From: Aliiroseovarius sp. Z3
Lineage (GTDB): Bacteria; Pseudomonadota; Alphaproteobacteria; Rhodobacterales; Rhodobacteraceae
Length of the DNA: 64,000 bases
Reading direction: 5' to 3'
NCBI RefSeq assembly: GCF_029105185.1
Contig: NZ_JAFMZK010000009.1
Location: 62,001-126,000 of the forward strand
In this document: piece after piece, positions 45,944-53,047 of the stretch
Layout of the letters: every line of letters begins with the position of its first letter
Numbering within the stretch: the stretch's first letter is position 1
The notes under the pieces: generated by a model
What the model saw: only the letters and a program-made list of their open reading frames with translations
What the model was told of the DNA's origin: nothing
Databases searched by the model: none
Program-made: the position numbers and the translations under genes

Positions 45944-46067
45944 TCCGACCTGCCGCTGCGGCGCCGCACTTGGGCGGATAATCGTCGCAGCGCGCAATCG
46001 GTGATGGATTTCCGTGGAAAACGGACCTATGGCTTGCACCATGACAACACGGACGGGACCATAGGAC

Positions 46068-46880
46068 ATGGCAGTTGGGGTATTCGATTCAGGGCTTGGT
46101 GGGTTGACGGTGCTGGACGCCGTGGCCAAACGCCTGCCCGAGGTTGATTTCGTCTATTATGCAGACAGTGCCCACGCGCCCTATGGCGTCCGGGACAGCG
46201 ATGACATTTATGACCTGACCACCAATGCCGTACAGGCCTTGTGGGACGAGGGATGCGACCTGGTCATTCTGGCCTGCAACACAGCCTCAGCCGCCGCGCT
46301 TCGGAGAATGCAGGAAAGCTGGATCCCCAAGGACAAGCGGGTGTTGGGTGTGTTCGTGCCGCTGATCGAGGCGTTGACCGAGCGGGATTGGGGCGACAAC
46401 TCGCCCCCGCGTGAGGTGGCGGTGAAACATGTGGCATTGTTTGCGACCCCTGCGACCGTGTCCAGCCGGGCGTTCCAGCGGGAACTGGCCTTTCGCGCCA
46501 TTGGGGTTGATGTCGAAGCGCAAGCCTGTGGTGGTGTGGTCGACGCAATCGAGGAAGGCGATATGATCCTTGCCGAAGCCTTGGTCCGCAGCCACGTGGA
46601 TGCGCTGAAACGTAAGATGCCCAAGCCAGAAGCGGCCATTCTGGGCTGCACACACTACCCGTTGATGGAAGACGCCTTCCAGAGCGCTTTGGGTGATGAT
46701 GTGCAGGTGTATAGCCAAGCCAATTTGGTTGCCGAAAGCCTTGCCTTCTATCTGGACCGTCACCCCGAGATGAGGGGCACAGGCACCGCATCGAAGTTCC
46801 TGACCACGGGTGATCCGGACCGCGTGTCGAATAGTGCGACCCAGTTTCTGCGACGAAAGATCACGTTCGAAGCGGCCTGA
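46068..46880 (+). CDS. murI: Glutamate racemase
   Basis: Makes D-glutamate for peptidoglycan. 270 residues. [11 protein letters not shown], catalytic Cys pair in [13 protein letters not shown] and [12 protein letters not shown], and [13 protein letters not shown] 46068. Follows the oxidoreductase by 124 bases with no recognisable RNA or promoter between. Leads into argC with a 55-base gap. Confidence 0.95.
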
Positions 46881-46935
46881 TTGAAGCCGGCCTTCAAAAC
46901 CACTACATCTTTCGACGAACCCGCAGGAGGTCTTG

Positions 46936-47964
46936 ATGACCCATAAAATCGCCATTCTAGGCGCGTCTGGTTACACCGGCGCTGAACTTGTCCGGCTGAT
47001 CGCCACCCACCCGACGATGGAGATCGTCGCTCTGTCCGCCGACCGTAAAGCGGGGATGGAGATGTCGGATGTGTATCCGCATCTGCGCCACCTTGATCTG
47101 CCCAAACTCACCACGATGGACGAGATCGACTTTAGCAATGTTGATCTGGCCTTTGCGGCCTTGCCGCATGGGCTGAGCCAGGCCTTGGTGCGCGATCTGC
47201 CGGAAACAGTGAAAGTCGTCGATCTGGGGGCTGATTTCCGGCTGCGCGATCCGGCAGAGTACCAGAAATGGTACGGCGCCCCGCATGTGGCGACCGAGCT
47301 TCAGAAAGAAGCGGTCTATGGTCTGACCGAATTTTACCGCGATGACATCAAGTCTGCGCGTCTGGTGGCGGGCACGGGTTGCAACGCGGCGACCGTGCAA
47401 TACGCGCTGCGTCCCTTGATCTCGGAAGGGTTGATCGACCTTGACCGGATCATTTGCGATTTGAAGAACGGGGTGTCCGGGGCCGGGCGGTCGCTGAAGG
47501 AAAACATGCTGTTTGCTGAACGTTCGACCAATGTGCAAGGCTATGCACAAGGCGGCACCCACCGGCATTTGGGCGAATTTGATCAGGAGTTTTCCCTGCT
47601 GGCCGGGCGTCCGGTCCAGATTATGTTCACCCCCCATCTTGTACCGGTGAACCGGGGTATTCTGGCCAATTGCTATGTCGATGGGGACGCTGATAAGATC
47701 CATGTGGCTCTGGTTGAGCAATATCAAGACGAGCCGTTTGTGACTGTGCTACCCAAGGGACAGTTGCCGGGTATGGGGCATGTGACGGGGTCGAACCAAT
47801 GCCACTTGGGTGTTGCGGGCGACCGTGTGCCGGGGCGTGCTTTGATCGTGTCAACGCTGGACAACCTGTGCAAGGGATCGTCCGGTCAGGCGATGCAAAA
47901 CGCGAACCTCATGCTGGGTGAGGATGAGACGACGGCGCTGATGATGCCTCCGGTCTATCCCTAA
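46936..47964 (+). CDS. argC: N-acetyl-gamma-glutamyl-phosphate reductase
   Basis: Arginine synthesis, NADPH-dependent. 342 residues. [18 protein letters not shown] Rossmann segment, catalytic Cys in [18 protein letters not shown], and [15 protein letters not shown] 46936 has AGGAGG six bases before; TTG 46933 is too close. Long form with DUF-type C-terminal [17 protein letters not shown]. The ccmE gene follows after 21 bases. Confidence 0.96.
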
Positions 47965-47985
47965 GGGTTTGAAAAGGAGCCGATT

Positions 47986-48438
47986 ATGGCTGGTTTGAAA
48001 AGTCTGAAGAAAACACGGCGGATCCAGATCATCATTCTGGCATTTGTCGCGCTTGCGATCTCGACCGGTTTGATCGGCTATGCGCTGAAAGACGGGATCA
48101 ACTATTACCGGTCCCCGACCGAAGTGTTGGCTGAACCACCTAGCGAAAACGAGGTGTTTCGCATGGGGGGATTGGTAGCGGACGGGAGTTTGGTGCGCGG
48201 TCAAAGTGAGACCGTGACGTTCTCCGTGACCGACGGGGCGGCCGTTGTGCCTGTTGCCTATACCGGCGTGTTGCCTGACCTTTTTGGTGAAAACCAAGGT
48301 ATGATCGGGACTGGCACATATGTAGATGGCACCTTTCAAGCCACGGAAATCCTTGCCAAACACGACGAAGACTACATGCCGAAAGAGGTTCTGGATAGCC
48401 TCAAGGAAAGCGGTGTCTACGTCGAGCCGACCTCTTGA
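47986..48438 (+). CDS. ccmE: Cytochrome c maturation heme chaperone CcmE
   Basis: Carries heme in the periplasm before transfer to apocytochrome c. 150 residues. One N-terminal TM (IQIIILAFVALAISTGLIG), beta-barrel OB domain, and the covalent heme histidine in LAKHDEDYMP. AAGGAG precedes the start. A five-gene lysis-like cassette comes between this gene and ccmF. Confidence 0.96.
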   Translation: MAGLKSLKKTRRIQIIILAFVALAISTGLIGYALKDGINYYRSPTEVLAEPPSENEVFRMGGLVADGSLVRGQSETVTFSVTDGAAVVPVAYTGVLPDLFGENQGMIGTGTYVDGTFQATEILAKHDEDYMPKEVLDSLKESGVYVEPTS

Positions 48439-48504
48439 TTTGAGGTTTCTTAACGCTTCTTAACCAGCCTGTGCCCCGTATTCCTTATGCGGGGTCAGGT
48501 GTTG

Positions 48505-49116
48505 ATGAAAAGCGTTGAAGAGATCGCGACCGAGATTGTCGCCCGAGAGGGCGGCTTTGTGAACGACCCGGACGACCCGGGCGGCGCGACGAAATACGGT
48601 GTGACCATACACACCATGCGCCGGTTGGGGCTGGATCTGGATCGGGACGGACAGATCACCGCTGGCGACGTGAAGCGGCTGACCCGAGATCAGGCCCGCG
48701 ATATCTTTCTGAAAAACTATTTCCGGAAACCCAGGCTGGCGGAGTTGCCAAAGGCGCTGCAAGCGTCGGTTTTCGACATGTATGTGAATGCGGGCAGCAA
48801 TGCCGTGCGCATCCTGCAAGAGCTGTTTCGCAAGATGGGGTACGAGCTGTCCGTGGACGGGGTGCTTGGGCCGCAGACACTCGGTATTGCGCGCGATGCA
48901 ATCCGCCGCGCCCCCGATCATCTGGTCGATGCTTATGGAATCGAACGGCGCAACTACTACTATCGTCTGGCCGATCGCCGCCCGAGCTCTCGCAAATATG
49001 CGTGTCGACGGGATGGTGGAAAGGGTGGGTGGATCACCCGCGCCGAAGCATTCCTGTCCTCCAAATACCACTTCACTGATCAAAATCACCGCGAAAGGAT
49101 TGCCGCATGGGGATGA
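48505..49116 (+). CDS. GH108 N-acetylmuramidase with peptidoglycan-binding domain
   Basis: 203 residues. Catalytic EGG motif at residues 15-17 (AREGGFVNDPDDPGGATKYG) of the GH108 family, then TLGIARDA-type PG_binding_3 repeat (SVDGVLGPQTLGIARDA). No signal peptide, as in phage endolysins that cross through holins; the next gene is a holin-family protein and the ends overlap by ten bases. ATG 48505 (MKSVEEIATEI) is favoured; ATG 48487 is in frame. Start of a five-gene overlapping set between ccmE and ccmF. Confidence 0.9.
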   Translation: MKSVEEIATEIVAREGGFVNDPDDPGGATKYGVTIHTMRRLGLDLDRDGQITAGDVKRLTRDQARDIFLKNYFRKPRLAELPKALQASVFDMYVNAGSNAVRILQELFRKMGYELSVDGVLGPQTLGIARDAIRRAPDHLVDAYGIERRNYYYRLADRRPSSRKYACRRDGGKGGWITRAEAFLSSKYHFTDQNHRERIAAWG

Positions 49117-49697
49117 TTGGGGCTGTCGTCGACATCCTGTTTGGACGTCGCGGAAACATCATTCGCGAGACCGCAGAGGTGTTTCGTGAAAACTCCGAGG
49201 CTGCGGCCATTCGCGATACCGATGTGCAACAGGCCGCGATAGACGCATTTCGTGCCGAGTTCATTGCGTCGCAAGGCGGTTGGTTCAATCGTTTCATGGA
49301 TGGTGTAAACCGGGTGCCGCGACCGGCCTTGGCGTTGTCCACAATCGCCCTGTTTGCCGCCGCCATGATCAATCCCGATTGGTTCGCCACGCGAATGCAG
49401 GGTGTGGCGGTGGTCCCCGAACCGCTTTGGTGGCTGATGGGCGTGGTTGTCAGCTTCTATTTCGGCGCGCGATACCAGGTGAAAGGGCAAGAATTTCAAC
49501 GGGCCATTGCCGCGAGCTTGATGCGGGATCTGGAGACAACGCGCGTGCGATCTGATCGCTCTGGCCTGCCATCTGTGTTCGGGGCGAAGCGTGAGGCAAC
49601 TCATGTGCCTGAGCGGACCCCCAACACGTATGGGACGGTTGACGCGACCGACAATGCCGCGCTGGCAGATTGGCAGGAGGTCACGCGTGGCCAGTGA
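49107..49697 (+). CDS. Holin family protein
   Basis: 196 residues. Two clear hydrophobic helices, ALALSTIALFAAAMINPDW (about 74-92) and PLWWLMGVVVSFYFGARYQV (about 106-125), with an N-terminal amphipathic part MIGAVVDILFGRRGN. This matches the holin (3TM) family found next to GH108 muramidases in roseobacters. Charged C-terminus (about 70 residues). Overlaps the muramidase by ten bases and the next gene by 11. Function as pore for the muramidase is inferred. Confidence 0.83.
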   Translation: MGMIGAVVDILFGRRGNIIRETAEVFRENSEAAAIRDTDVQQAAIDAFRAEFIASQGGWFNRFMDGVNRVPRPALALSTIALFAAAMINPDWFATRMQGVAVVPEPLWWLMGVVVSFYFGARYQVKGQEFQRAIAASLMRDLETTRVRSDRSGLPSVFGAKREATHVPERTPNTYGTVDATDNAALADWQEVTRGQ

Positions 49698-49881
49698 TAT
49701 GCTTTTGAATCTGGTGGCCGAACATGGGCCGTGGGTGCTGTTGGTGTTCTACTTGCTATATCGCGACCTGCAGAAAGATCAGGCGACGCGGGCGGTGTTG
49801 GACAAAAACTCTTCTATTCTGATCGAGATCACGACGATCATCCGCGAACGCTTGCCGTCAGCCGGGGGGCGGGTCGGATGA
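49687..49881 (+). CDS. One-TM holin-like small protein
   Basis: 64 residues from GTG 49687, six bases after AGGAGG (49675-49680). One TM helix near the N-terminus (HGPWVLLVFYLLYRDLQ), then a charged helical tail (KDQATRAVLDKNSSILIEITTIIRERL). The layout is like BhlA/UviB bacteriocin-export holin-like peptides; similarity is by shape. ATG 49699 is an alternative start. The end overlaps the next gene by four bases. Confidence 0.75.
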   Translation: MASDMLLNLVAEHGPWVLLVFYLLYRDLQKDQATRAVLDKNSSILIEITTIIRERLPSAGGRVG

Positions 49882-50015
49882 TGGCGGTGCTTTGGCGGTT
49901 TCGATCCCGCCTTTGGGCGATGTTGGTGGGCACACGCTTCCAACGATCAGTTGAACAAAACGAACATGCAGCAGCGGAACTGGACGCTGCTGTGCGGGAG
50001 GTCTTGCAGAAATGA
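49878..50015 (+). CDS. 45-residue basic amphipathic peptide
   Basis: MMAVLWRFRSRLWAMLVGTR then FQRSVEQNEHAAAELDAAVREVLQK. Basic, aromatic N-terminal half, possible membrane-surface helix, and acidic C-terminal helix. Start and stop overlap neighbours by four bases each (ATGA), so coupled translation is likely. No known family. It could be a regulator or partner of the holin-like proteins. Confidence 0.62.
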   Translation: MMAVLWRFRSRLWAMLVGTRFQRSVEQNEHAAAELDAAVREVLQK

Positions 50016-50434
50016 AACAAGCGTTTGGTTTGATGATGTGCCTCGCCGTCATGTTGCAGCTTGGCTATCTGGTGGCGGGATATGACGCGATGTATCAGAT
50101 TGGATATGGCGCGATCACCCTTATGGGGCTGATGATCTCGCTGACGTTTCTGTGGCTTTATGTGCAGCGCGCGACGCCGTTGGCACTTGGCATGGCTTAC
50201 AGTTGGTCGGGGGCCAGCCTTGTCCTGGGCTGGTGGTGGATATTTGCCTTGGCAGGCGAGCCAGCAATCATGTCGCACAGCGCGGCGCATTTCGTGCCTC
50301 TGGCGTTGTATCTGTCCGGCGCATTCCTGCACTTCAGTGTCATTCACCGATCATTCGGTTGCCACGGGGCAACATTCCTTTGGCCGGTGCTGGTGGCGGT
50401 GGTGGTGTCCACCGCGATCTTTCTGGTCGTTTGA
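50012..50434 (+). CDS. Five-TM protein of the lysis-like cassette
   Basis: 140 residues, five hydrophobic segments: MKQAFGLMMCLAVMLQLGYL, YGAITLMGLMISLTFLWLYV, MAYSWSGASLVLGWWWIFAL, FVPLALYLSGAFLHFSVIH and TFLWPVLVAVVVSTAIFLVV. No family recognised. Overlaps the 45-residue gene by four bases and ends about 95 bases before ccmF. Location suggests a link to either the muramidase/holin set or to CcmF. Confidence 0.7.
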   Translation: MKQAFGLMMCLAVMLQLGYLVAGYDAMYQIGYGAITLMGLMISLTFLWLYVQRATPLALGMAYSWSGASLVLGWWWIFALAGEPAIMSHSAAHFVPLALYLSGAFLHFSVIHRSFGCHGATFLWPVLVAVVVSTAIFLVV

Positions 50435-50491
50435 TGACCACAATGCCGTGACCTGACGCCGCACGGGGCTAGGCCCGAACGGCGACTCCGT

Positions 50492-50509
50492 TTATGGTCG
50501 CGACCATAA
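50492..50509. promoter_or_regulatory. Perfect 18-bp palindrome upstream of ccmF
   Basis: TTATGGTCG/CGACCATAA, no spacer. A direct copy of the half, TGGTCGCGA, is repeated at 50518-50526 next to the ccmF start. Gap 50435-50528 holds no gene. Likely operator or promoter element separating the ccmF-ccmH part from the cassette. Confidence 0.5.
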
Positions 50510-50528
50510 TAACAGAGTGGTCGCGAAC

Positions 50529-52499
50529 ATGATTACAGAACTCGGACATTTTGCGCTGATCCTGGCGCTGGGCGTGGCGGCCGTGCAGATGATCGTGCCG
50601 CTGGTTGGGGCGCATAAAGGGTGGCAAGGCTGGATGGAAATGGCCGTGCCAGCCGCGACCATCCAATTTCTGCTGGTGTTCGCATCGTTCCTTGCGCTGA
50701 CCTATGCGTTTGTGACCTCTGACTTTTCTGTCCAACTGGTCACGCTGAACTCGCACTCGGCCAAACCCATGCTGTACAAAGTGTCGGGTGTGTGGGGCAA
50801 CCACGAAGGTTCGATGCTGCTGTGGGTGCTGATCGTGTCGCTGTTTGGCGCCATGGCCGCATGGTTCGGTGGCAACCTGCCGCAACGGTTGAAAGCCCGC
50901 GTGCTTGCGGTGCAAAGCTCGATCGCAGTGGCGTTTCTGGGCTTTGTTCTGTTCACGTCCAACCCGTTCATCCGCATCGCGCAACCGCCCTTTGACGGGC
51001 GTGACCTGAACCCGCTTCTGCAAGACCCCGGTTTGGCGTTCCATCCACCCTTCCTGTATCTAGGTTATGTGGGCCTTTCGATGGCGTTTTCATTCGCCGT
51101 CGCCGCCCTGATCGAAGGACGGATTGATGCGGCCTGGGGGCGCTGGGTGCGCCCGTGGACGCTGGCGGCATGGATATTCCTGACCATCGGGATCGCATTG
51201 GGCAGCTGGTGGGCTTATTACGAGCTTGGCTGGGGCGGGTTCTGGTTCTGGGATCCGGTCGAAAACGCGTCCTTCATGCCTTGGTTGTTTGCCGCCGCCC
51301 TTCTTCATTCGGCCATTGTTGTCGAAAAACGTGAAAGCCTGAAAAGCTGGACGATCCTGCTGGCAATCCTTGCCTTCGGTTTCTCGCTGATCGGCACATT
51401 TATCGTGCGGTCGGGCGTGATCACGTCGGTGCATGCCTTTGCATCCGACCCGGAGCGTGGTGTCTTTATCCTGATGATCCTTGCGGTCTTCACGGGCGGC
51501 GCGCTGACGTTGTTTGCGGCACGCGCAAGCTCGATGGAGGCACGTGGTGTCTTTGGTTTCATCAGCCGGGAAAGTGCGCTGGTGGCCAACAACATATTGC
51601 TTGCGGTTTCGTCGTTCGTCGTCTTCGTTGGTACAATCTGGCCGTTGATCGGCGAAATTTTCGGCCGCAAAATCTCGGTCGGAGCGCCGTTTTTCGAAGC
51701 AGCCTTTACCCCCTTCATGGTGGTGCTGGCACTGATCCTTCCAGTGGGCGCGATGCTGCCCTGGAAACGCGCCAAACTTGGTCGTGTCGTCAAATCTCTT
51801 GTACCGGCTTTCGTTCTGGCGGTGGCCGTCGGGGCGTTGGTTTGGGCAATGCAGACGGGCAAAACGGCCCTGGGCCCGATTGGTATGTTCCTTGGCACAT
51901 GGCTGGTGGCCGGGGCACTTGTGGACATTGCCAGCCGCACGGGGCGTGGCGCTGTGACGAACCGCTTGTCGCGACTGACCCGCCTGCCGCGTTCGGACTG
52001 GGGAAAACTCGCCGCACATGCCGGGTTTGGGATCACGATGATGGGTATCTCGGGCCTGATGGCCTGGAGCGTTGAGGACATTCGTGTTGCCCACATTGGC
52101 GACACCTTTCAGGTGGCCGACTATGACATCACCTTAGAACGTGTGGAGCGTGATCAGGGGCCGAACTATGTTTCGACAAAGGCAACCATTATTGTCTCGC
52201 AACACGATGACGCGATCGCTGTTCTGCATCCTGAAAAACGCGTCTATCCGGTGCAAGCCATGCCTACGACCGAGGCGGCGATTTCAAACGGCTTCTGGCG
52301 GGACATCTATCTGGTGATCGGCGATCCGCAGGATGATGGGGCTTGGGCTGTTCGAACCTTCATCAAACCGTTTACCAACTGGATATGGGCAGGCTGTATC
52401 TTGATGGCGCTGGGCGGGGTGTTGAGCCTGACAGACCGCCGATTCCGAGTTGCCGCAGGCGCGGCCAAGTCACGAATGCAAGGGGTGCCAGCCGAATGA
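50529..52499 (+). CDS. ccmF: Cytochrome c-type biogenesis protein CcmF
   Basis: Heme lyase component that transfers heme from CcmE to apocytochrome. 656 residues, about 15 TM helices. WWD domain WGGFWFWDPVENASFMPWL and the conserved periplasmic His regions (HSAKPMLYK, HPPFLYLGYVG). ATG 50529; GTG 50517 in frame. The stop overlaps ccmH by four bases. Confidence 0.96.
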   Translation: MITELGHFALILALGVAAVQMIVPLVGAHKGWQGWMEMAVPAATIQFLLVFASFLALTYAFVTSDFSVQLVTLNSHSAKPMLYKVSGVWGNHEGSMLLWVLIVSLFGAMAAWFGGNLPQRLKARVLAVQSSIAVAFLGFVLFTSNPFIRIAQPPFDGRDLNPLLQDPGLAFHPPFLYLGYVGLSMAFSFAVAALIEGRIDAAWGRWVRPWTLAAWIFLTIGIALGSWWAYYELGWGGFWFWDPVENASFMPWLFAAALLHSAIVVEKRESLKSWTILLAILAFGFSLIGTFIVRSGVITSVHAFASDPERGVFILMILAVFTGGALTLFAARASSMEARGVFGFISRESALVANNILLAVSSFVVFVGTIWPLIGEIFGRKISVGAPFFEAAFTPFMVVLALILPVGAMLPWKRAKLGRVVKSLVPAFVLAVAVGALVWAMQTGKTALGPIGMFLGTWLVAGALVDIASRTGRGAVTNRLSRLTRLPRSDWGKLAAHAGFGITMMGISGLMAWSVEDIRVAHIGDTFQVADYDITLERVERDQGPNYVSTKATIIVSQHDDAIAVLHPEKRVYPVQAMPTTEAAISNGFWRDIYLVIGDPQDDGAWAVRTFIKPFTNWIWAGCILMALGGVLSLTDRRFRVAAGAAKSRMQGVPAE

Positions 52500-52960
52500 G
52501 AGGTATGATTTTCCCCGCACTTCTGGCGCTGGTTGTGGTTTCTACCCCGGCGCTGGCGGTCAATCCTGACGAAGTGCTTAGCGATCCGGTATTGGAACAA
52601 CGTGCCCGGGATATCTCGGCCGACCTCAGATGCGTGGTCTGCCGGGGCGAGAATATTGACGAGAGCAATGCCGCGATTGCGCGTGACCTGCGCCTTCTGG
52701 TGCGCGAACGTCTTGTCGATGGTGACAGCAATGATGAGGTGGTGGACTTCATCGTCGAACGCTATGGCGAATACGTTTTGATGAAGCCAAACACGTCCGG
52801 TGCAAATATCCTGCTTTGGGCCGCGGGTCCGGCCTTGTTTCTGGTCGCACTGATTTCTGGCGTTGTCTATCTGCGCCGCCGCTCTCAAGCCCGCGACGGC
52901 GCGGTGGCCTTGTCTTCGGACGAGGAAGCGCGCCTGAAAGAACTCCTGAAAGACGGCTGA
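52496..52960 (+). CDS. ccmH: Cytochrome c-type biogenesis protein CcmH
   Basis: Thioredoxin-like heme-handling protein that reduces the CXXCH cysteines. 154 residues. Signal peptide (FPALLALVVVSTPALA), LRCVVC motif (RCxxC), ENIDESNAAIARDLR, and a C-terminal TM (ILLWAAGPALFLVALISGVVYL). The short type without the TPR domain of E. coli CcmH; a separate CcmI would be elsewhere. Translationally coupled to ccmF by ATGA. Confidence 0.94.
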   Translation: MRGMIFPALLALVVVSTPALAVNPDEVLSDPVLEQRARDISADLRCVVCRGENIDESNAAIARDLRLLVRERLVDGDSNDEVVDFIVERYGEYVLMKPNTSGANILLWAAGPALFLVALISGVVYLRRRSQARDGAVALSSDEEARLKELLKDG

Positions 52961-53047
52961 GACCTTTTTGCCCGGCAGGCCAATCCGCGGTCCGGGGCGA
53001 ATGTTTTTCGCGAGTGACGGAGCGTTCGTCTTTACCTGACTGCTTGG

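Follow-up and report, generated by a model that had tools for sequence, protein, structure and literature searches.

How can a lethal lysis gene sit behind a housekeeping operon? The question was raised by five overlapping genes on the + strand (positions 48505-50434) of a 64,000-nucleotide (nt) stretch of the Aliiroseovarius sp. Z3 genome (contig NZ_JAFMZK010000009.1, positions 62,001 to 126,000; hereafter the window), which begin with an endolysin and a holin and lie between the cytochrome c maturation genes ccmE and ccmF. The answer favored here, and considered fairly probable, is that these genes form a separately controlled chromosomal lysis operon at the ccmE-ccmF junction, insulated from ccm read-through by a hairpin lock. 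Direct support was obtained for the gene identities, their distribution and synteny, a predicted hairpin with covariation, a promoter-like footprint, and the retention of the lysis genes without a gene transfer agent (GTA).

Judged by family matches, the first two genes are of a known kind, a holin-endolysin lysis pair. The endolysin (48505-49116, + strand, 203 amino acids, aa) matched the model NF040573, "holin-associated N-acetylmuramidase," with 355.7 bits over residues 4-203 (curated cut-off 240), as well as PF05838 (E 4.4e-27) and PF09374 (E 1.6e-20), which bore out the GH108 muramidase proposed in the initial annotation. Its sequence REGGF contains EGG[YFW] near the N-terminus, which we take to be the GH108 catalytic motif, and this motif or E.GG[YFW] was found in 124/124 endolysin loci. 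Solved structural relatives of the protein are 2nr7, 7dnp, 6v3z, 2is5, 2ikb, and 6v40, and no signal peptide was recognized by reading of the sequence alone. The holin (49107-49697, + strand, 196 aa) matched PF11351 (GTA_holin_3TM; 82.4 bits, E 4.8e-23, gathering cut-off 24.8) and was the sole match to this family in the genome of the window; the holin assignment of the initial annotation was thereby refined to the family that Pfam names "Holin of 3TMs, for gene-transfer release."

The remaining three genes, all on the + strand, encode the small protein p64 (49687-49881, 64 aa, GTG start, one predicted transmembrane segment read from the sequence), the short basic protein p45 (49878-50015, 45 aa), and the membrane protein p140 (50012-50434, 140 aa), the last two regarded as accessory. 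The five genes and their overlaps of 10, 11, 4, and 4 nt were confirmed, and so was their position between ccmE (47986-48438, + strand, PF03100 E 7.6e-31) and ccmF (50517-52499, + strand, PF16327 E 8.5e-118), by coordinates and Pfam matches; argC (46933-47964) lies further upstream of the pair. The five open reading frames (ORFs) appear to be more than chance frames, because of the GH108 and GTA_holin_3TM E-values (4.4e-27 and 4.8e-23) and because the order p64-p45-p140 recurs in other genera. Furthermore, the endolysin-to-holin start distance of 602 nt, which gives the 10-nt overlap, was kept in 166 of the 172 scorable loci, including that of the window. An alternative in-frame ATG at 48487, inside the leader hairpin, would give a 209-aa endolysin and could mislead gene callers. 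The start at 48505 is supported rather than this one by the NF040573 family model and by the constant endolysin length (203-204 aa in 124/124 loci).

The hairpin was predicted immediately before the endolysin (core 48467-48500, + strand; pairing reaching 48461-48504), and its 3' arm holds the endolysin ribosome-binding region. The fold of 48461-48507 had an energy of -23.4 kcal/mol (z -4.79), with 0/200 shuffles as stable; the segment 48469-48540, which begins partway through the 5' arm and continues into the endolysin gene, gave a z of only -1.52. After removal of leaders at least 75% identical (205 reduced to 168), the endolysin leaders had a mean dinucleotide-shuffle z of -2.28 (below -2 in 88 and below -1 in 121), versus -0.25 for ccmE (108 leaders), -0.44 for ccmF (137), and -0.02 for argC (63). 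The unpaired probability of the region from -15 to -5 was 0.28 in the endolysin leaders, versus 0.47 in shuffled sequences and 0.46-0.52 in the controls. When arms were swapped, those of the same genome paired at a mean of -15.7 kcal/mol and those of different genomes at -11.5 (p 1e-18); the same comparison was not significant for ccmE (p 0.35) or ccmF (p 0.18) and gave a small opposite difference for argC (p 0.026). All these leaders come from related genomes, and the p values overstate their independence. Another 18 ORFs of the region, several of them mechanical calls on the opposite strand, had mean z values from -0.80 to 0.41. The folding models therefore predict a hairpin that covers the ribosome-binding region of the endolysin, with no such hairpin at ccmE, ccmF, or argC. 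A known RNA family was rejected for it, as the Rfam search of 46000-53000 returned no match. Hairpin strength varied with the upstream neighbor: the mean z was -2.47 in 134 loci with ccmE no more than 170 nt upstream, -2.05 in 13 loci with ccmE farther away, and -1.20 in 21 loci where no ccmE was found (p 7.5e-4 for the first group versus the last).

A promoter-like footprint precedes the hairpin. In the window, CtrA-like half-sites TTAAC-N5-TTAACC occupy 48450-48465 on the + strand (letters checked), the second, TTAACC, at 48460-48465. TTAAC started between -75 and -30 in 137/168 endolysin leaders, where 5.1 were expected, and in the same range in only 1/108 ccmE, 1/137 ccmF, and 0/63 argC leaders. 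Exactly 22 nt upstream of TTAAC, the element C-G-N-A-C-G was conserved, with 1.2-1.4 bits of information in four of its positions and 0.6 bits for the A. The related CG.ACG[GC] was also found within about 270 nt upstream of the GTA gene g1 in 16/21 genomes, that of the window included, against 3.6 expected, several of the g1 starts being estimated from g2; in several genomes it lay between the two boxes of a CTTGAC...GTATAA promoter, and some showed a repeat about 44 nt upstream. We propose that CGNACG may be a GafA element, with GafA binding predicted. At the g1 promoters of four loci (L210, L211, L226, and L227), two copies of CGNACGG were spaced about 44 bp from each other, with the second located between CTTGAC and a -10-like stretch, and a paired GafA site is a possible reading of this doubling. 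No gafA candidate was recognized in the 18 kb around lipA (L208, G000:C1:184000-202000), the only place searched; this neighborhood is the usual one for gafA, according to the accessible part of PMC6363796. Since the footprint and the inhibitory hairpin lie between ccmE and the endolysin, the lysis genes are unlikely to be expressed simply as part of the ccmE transcript.

Put together, these features suggest the following mechanism. The upstream genes argC-ccmE are a biosynthetic operon, presumably expressed in ordinary growth, and the lysis operon would carry a lock because it is placed behind them. Transcripts reading through from ccmE would fold the ribosome-binding region into the hairpin, so that little endolysin would be made from stray ccm mRNA. 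The operon would have a switch of its own, a promoter with a CtrA-like half-site and often with CGNACG 22 nt upstream, and its dedicated transcripts would escape the lock and be translated in one of two ways, by starting inside the hairpin or by having it opened through their abundance or by a factor. Through holes made by the holin, the muramidase would then gain access to the wall, causing the cell to burst. The first of the two escapes is modeled on gene e of phage T4, in which read-through transcripts bury the ribosome-binding site and yield about 100-fold less lysozyme, and transcripts from the late promoter lack the 5' arm (PMC3014915, available in part). In both systems, the read-through mRNA of a lysis gene has its Shine-Dalgarno sequence covered by a leader helix, here as a prediction with covariation. 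The present case differs from T4 in being host-chromosomal, in covarying across a bacterial order, and in its CtrA-like promoter type; an internal start as the way of escape belongs to T4 and is proposed here as one option.

Besides the relatedness of the leaders, several observations weigh against this mechanism. Nearly half of the leaders (80/168) were not below z -2. Absence of read-through was not shown at the 21 ccmE-less loci, because 19 of them list a co-directional ORF of at least 80 aa (a mechanical call) ending within 250 nt, and because three (L085, L107, and L111) have strong hairpins. Hairpins were weaker, not significantly, in genomes without a GTA, with a mean z of -1.42 (n=16, including genome G091) versus -2.29 (n=81; p 0.079), or -1.50 (n=15) versus -2.27 (n=82; p 0.14) with G091 left out. 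The full TTAA-N6/7-TTAA pair was present in only 15/91 leaders, most of which hold a half-site only, and CGNACG at the fixed distance was present in 80/168 leaders, that of the window not among them. A conserved CA at TTAAC+15/+16, if it were the transcription start, would lie before or at the base of the hairpin; the complete hairpin would then be part of the dedicated mRNA, and an escape of the T4 type would fail. No TATAAT-like -10 was evident inside the hairpin. As regards the known GTA lysis genes discussed below, the orthology to rcc00555 was drawn from primers and position only, and the primer 20-mer was found in 0/390 genomes, Rhodobacter capsulatus being absent from the search set or missed.

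The search among related genomes suggested in the initial annotation was carried out. NF040573 was found in 283/292 genomes of the order of the window, the Rhodobacterales, in 282 of them over the cut-off. Endolysin and holin occurred together in 124/124 loci of one set (L082-L205, the G set), which was picked from the top listed matches and from genomes without GTA markers and is not a random sample. In this set, ccmE lay within 1 kb upstream in 106/124 loci, ccmF within 3.5 kb downstream in 97/124, both in 82/124, and at least one of them in 121/124. The order ccmE-endolysin-holin-ccmF was also found in 66 of 80 named loci, which were the best 80 of at least 553; 100 of the stretches were hand-picked among the best-scoring NF040573 matches listed. 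At some loci (e.g., L044, L045, and L078), neither ccmE nor ccmF was found near the pair within 10 kb on each side or up to the contig end. Extra DNA was seen in some loci, of about 0.8-2.8 kb between ccmE and the endolysin (L023, L028, and L066) or of about 0.9-1.7 kb between the accessory genes and ccmF (L015, L019, L031, and L046). In Mantel tests, divergence of ccmE correlated with that of the endolysin (r 0.27, n=97) and of the holin (r 0.47, n=79), both at p 0.001. In a phage collection, 588 records matched the endolysin, all below 60% identity and the 15 listed at most 35%; the holin, p64, and p140 had no match there at the limits used. A recent phage insertion was rejected in view of the near-universal presence and the 121/124 synteny, in line with the earlier statement that the cassette is not a prophage remnant. 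As far as comparison of genomes can tell, the cassette is an old, fixed chromosomal operon, because of its presence in 283/292 genomes and its ccm neighbor in 121/124 loci.

A lysis pair of this kind is already known from R. capsulatus, in literature of which parts were accessible. The endolysin and holin genes rcc00555 and rcc00556 lie outside the GTA cluster of that species (PMC6854486) and are co-expressed with the genes of its agent, RcGTA (PMC4158056); PMC3423380 cites Hynes et al. (2012) for a lowering of gene transfer when rcc00555 is disrupted, and states that its direct lytic activity had not been shown. GafA binds the promoter of the lysis cassette and CtrA is required (PMC6363796), with CtrA half-sites at the rcc00555/6 promoter (PMC9638019). 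The forward primer published for rcc00555 (PMC6854486), split by us into a 5' tail and a genomic 20-mer that encodes IVIDLKA, had its best match inside argC in 42 of the 157 scored loci and elsewhere in 115. All 6/6 loci with at most three mismatches had it inside argC at offset 516; the closest (L013) had one mismatch, 1046 nt before the endolysin, and the reversed 20-mer used as a control never fell below five mismatches. The reverse primer, as given in the same partly available literature, contains GTTAACC. Because the primer matches fall inside argC at a fixed offset, the present endolysin very probably corresponds in position to rcc00555, and an adjacent endolysin-holin pair does lie downstream of argC, as expected of an rcc00555/rcc00556 orthologue. 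Accordingly, the cassette probably corresponds to the RcGTA lysis pair, with which it shares the endolysin and holin, the lack of linkage to the GTA head-tail cluster, the place downstream of argC, and the upstream GTTAACC; in R. capsulatus, the accessible literature describes it as CtrA- and GafA-dependent. It differs in its three extra overlapping genes and its place between ccmE and ccmF, and neither a leader hairpin nor retention without a GTA appeared in the accessible parts of the literature on the RcGTA cassette. In the genome of the window, a different contig carries a GTA cluster (capsid PF05065 E 6.1e-90, portal PF04860 E 1.9e-86, PF09343, and PF13547). GTA release, one of the uses suggested in the initial annotation, is supported as plausible by the Pfam and NCBIfam names, the RcGTA literature, and the position of the rcc00555 primer in argC.

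As to INDEPENDENCE from GTA, PF13547 (GTA g15) was missing in 12/292 genomes and weak (E 1e-25 to 1e-41) in 15. When these 27 genomes were searched with the capsid protein of the window's genome, a GTA-like capsid was found in G091 only, a stop-bearing remnant in G251, and more distant phage-like capsid matches in G110 and G078, with no capsid match in 23. The query matched all of 15 other genomes, its own included, as a partial frame in G145 and in two pieces in G227; PF09343, searched in 19 of the 27, was found in none. For genomes beyond these 42, GTA status was taken from PF13547 alone, and all others were counted as GTA-positive. Of the 26 genomes that had no intact GTA-like capsid, 24 kept the endolysin, and a GTA capsid match was present in 7/9 endolysin-less genomes; no significant association between endolysin and GTA was obtained (24/2 versus 259/7, Fisher p 0.19). 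The holin was found in 17/18 first-chosen PF13547-poor genomes (G091 among them) and in 0/8 further endolysin-less genomes. One 2.6-Mb genome (G232, locus L243) had neither GTA markers nor the lysis pair, and a 27-residue endolysin match followed its ccmE.

In GTA-less genomes, the endolysin had 203 aa and kept EGG[YFW] in 19/19. Its dN/dS in the three closest GTA-less pairs was 0.105 (G007-G009, dS 0.82), 0.076 (G102-G111, dS 1.78), and 0.103 (G160-G027, dS 1.91), with ccmE values of 0.088, 0.031, and 0.060 in the same pairs; more distant pairs gave 0.11-0.25 for the endolysin where computable. Relative to ccmE, divergence was not significantly raised in GTA-less genomes for the endolysin (median 1.55 versus 1.29, p 0.22) or the holin (2.52 versus 2.28, p 0.29), all G-set loci outside the GTA-less list being counted here as positive; the frames used were filtered by length, which left 97 for ccmE and 103 for the holin out of 124. 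TTAAC was present in 18/20 leaders of the GTA-less set (G091 among the 20) and in 85/104 other G-set leaders, and the upstream element, by a looser search, in 9/20 and 50/104. The pair was observed to outlive the GTA, a claim limited by the age of each loss, and since the operon is retained without it, an additional role in release or lysis is probable.

These data bear on three rival explanations. The most serious is that this is an ordinary GTA lysis pair whose sole purpose is GTA release, the hairpin being a tuning of weak initiation. It accords with the family names of both proteins, the effect of rcc00555 disruption on gene transfer (Hynes et al., 2012, cited in PMC3423380), the co-expression with RcGTA genes (PMC4158056), and the GTA cluster in the window's genome. 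The retention of the endolysin in 24/26 genomes lacking an intact GTA-like capsid, the GTA capsid in 7/9 endolysin-less genomes (Fisher p 0.19), the dN/dS of 0.08-0.11 in the three closest GTA-less pairs, and the intact catalytic-site motif in 19/19 all speak against so narrow a purpose, which we regard as rather unlikely. The broader alternative to it, an order-wide self-lysis operon inside a housekeeping operon, silenced in read-through by the hairpin and used for altruistic or programmed lysis even without a GTA, is put forward tentatively, as a possibility that we stop short of expecting.

The inverted repeat could also be a DNA operator for a regulator, as its 5' arm begins a median of 8 nt after the TTAACN half-site. 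Sequence conservation would be expected of an operator, whereas here the sequence varies by genome and the pairing is kept, and the 3' arm meets the ribosome-binding region; because the pairing was kept while the sequence drifted, an RNA structure is preferred and the operator is very unlikely. Still less credible is the suggestion, also made in the initial annotation, that the pair opens peptidoglycan locally in aid of cytochrome c maturation and owes its ccm position to this. The conserved place beside ccmE and/or ccmF (121/124 loci) and the independence from the GTA would fit such a role, but it was not supported: genomes without the endolysin keep ccmF in 9/9 cases and ccmE in 8/9, the one without a ccmE found (G013) being an assembly in 90 contigs, and in one of them (L245) ccmF starts about 108 nt after ccmE. 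Moreover, at some loci, such as L044, L045, and L078, neither gene was found near the pair, and a promoter-like leader footprint with an inhibitory hairpin would be odd for a ccm co-factor. The separately controlled, hairpin-locked lysis operon is thus retained as the preferred reading.

Additionally, the last three genes are, on the evidence of their distribution, a lineage extension of the endolysin-holin pair. p64 was present in 20/292 genomes of the order and 9/112 genera, within about 1.3 kb of the endolysin in the 15 of the 20 genomes with a listed endolysin position, and it was more conserved than the holin (e.g., 96% versus 56% in L004). In two genomes (G261 and G052), the p64 match holds one stop codon, and p64 may be decaying there. 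The initial annotation had placed the three small proteins in no known system; this held for p45 and p140, which matched no Pfam family at E <= 1, while p64 has a weak resemblance to BhlA-type holins (PF10960). PF10960 was its most frequent Pfam match, found in 15/18 members with a best E of 0.016, and the copy in the window fell below the gathering cut-off (12.4 bits, E 0.16, versus 22.6 bits). One row on the wrong strand (L149) was left out of the p64/p140 member comparisons. p45 sits between p64 and p140 in other genera too. The predicted model of p140 shows five long helices and a short one (pLDDT 94); when its fold was compared with PDB and viral structures, no hit reached E <= 0.001, and the top viral one, an unnamed protein, had E 0.04 and, by query length, TM 0.74. 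Our best guess is that p64 is a second, BhlA-like holin and that p45 and p140 tune lysis, so that the minority of genera carrying them would add three genes that probably tune or complete the process.

The endolysin-holin pair itself is already known. The fixed ccm position, the leader hairpin, the shared element, and the GTA-independent retention were not found in the accessible parts of the literature searched (PMC3423380, PMC6854486, PMC11409702, PMC9638019, PMC4158056, PMC6363796, PMC6473078, and PMC3014915), and searches on rcc00553/554/557 and on GTA, endolysin, cytochrome c, and Rhodobacterales together returned nothing. If true, the proposed mechanism would explain how a lethal gene can sit behind a housekeeping operon, with the hairpin as an RNA element open to reporter testing. 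Genomes could be searched for members of the late GTA regulon by means of the CGNACG/TTAACC footprint. The lysis module would be separated from gene transfer agents, being kept where the agent is gone, and the Rhodobacterales without a GTA would be natural test strains for the lysis pair acting alone.

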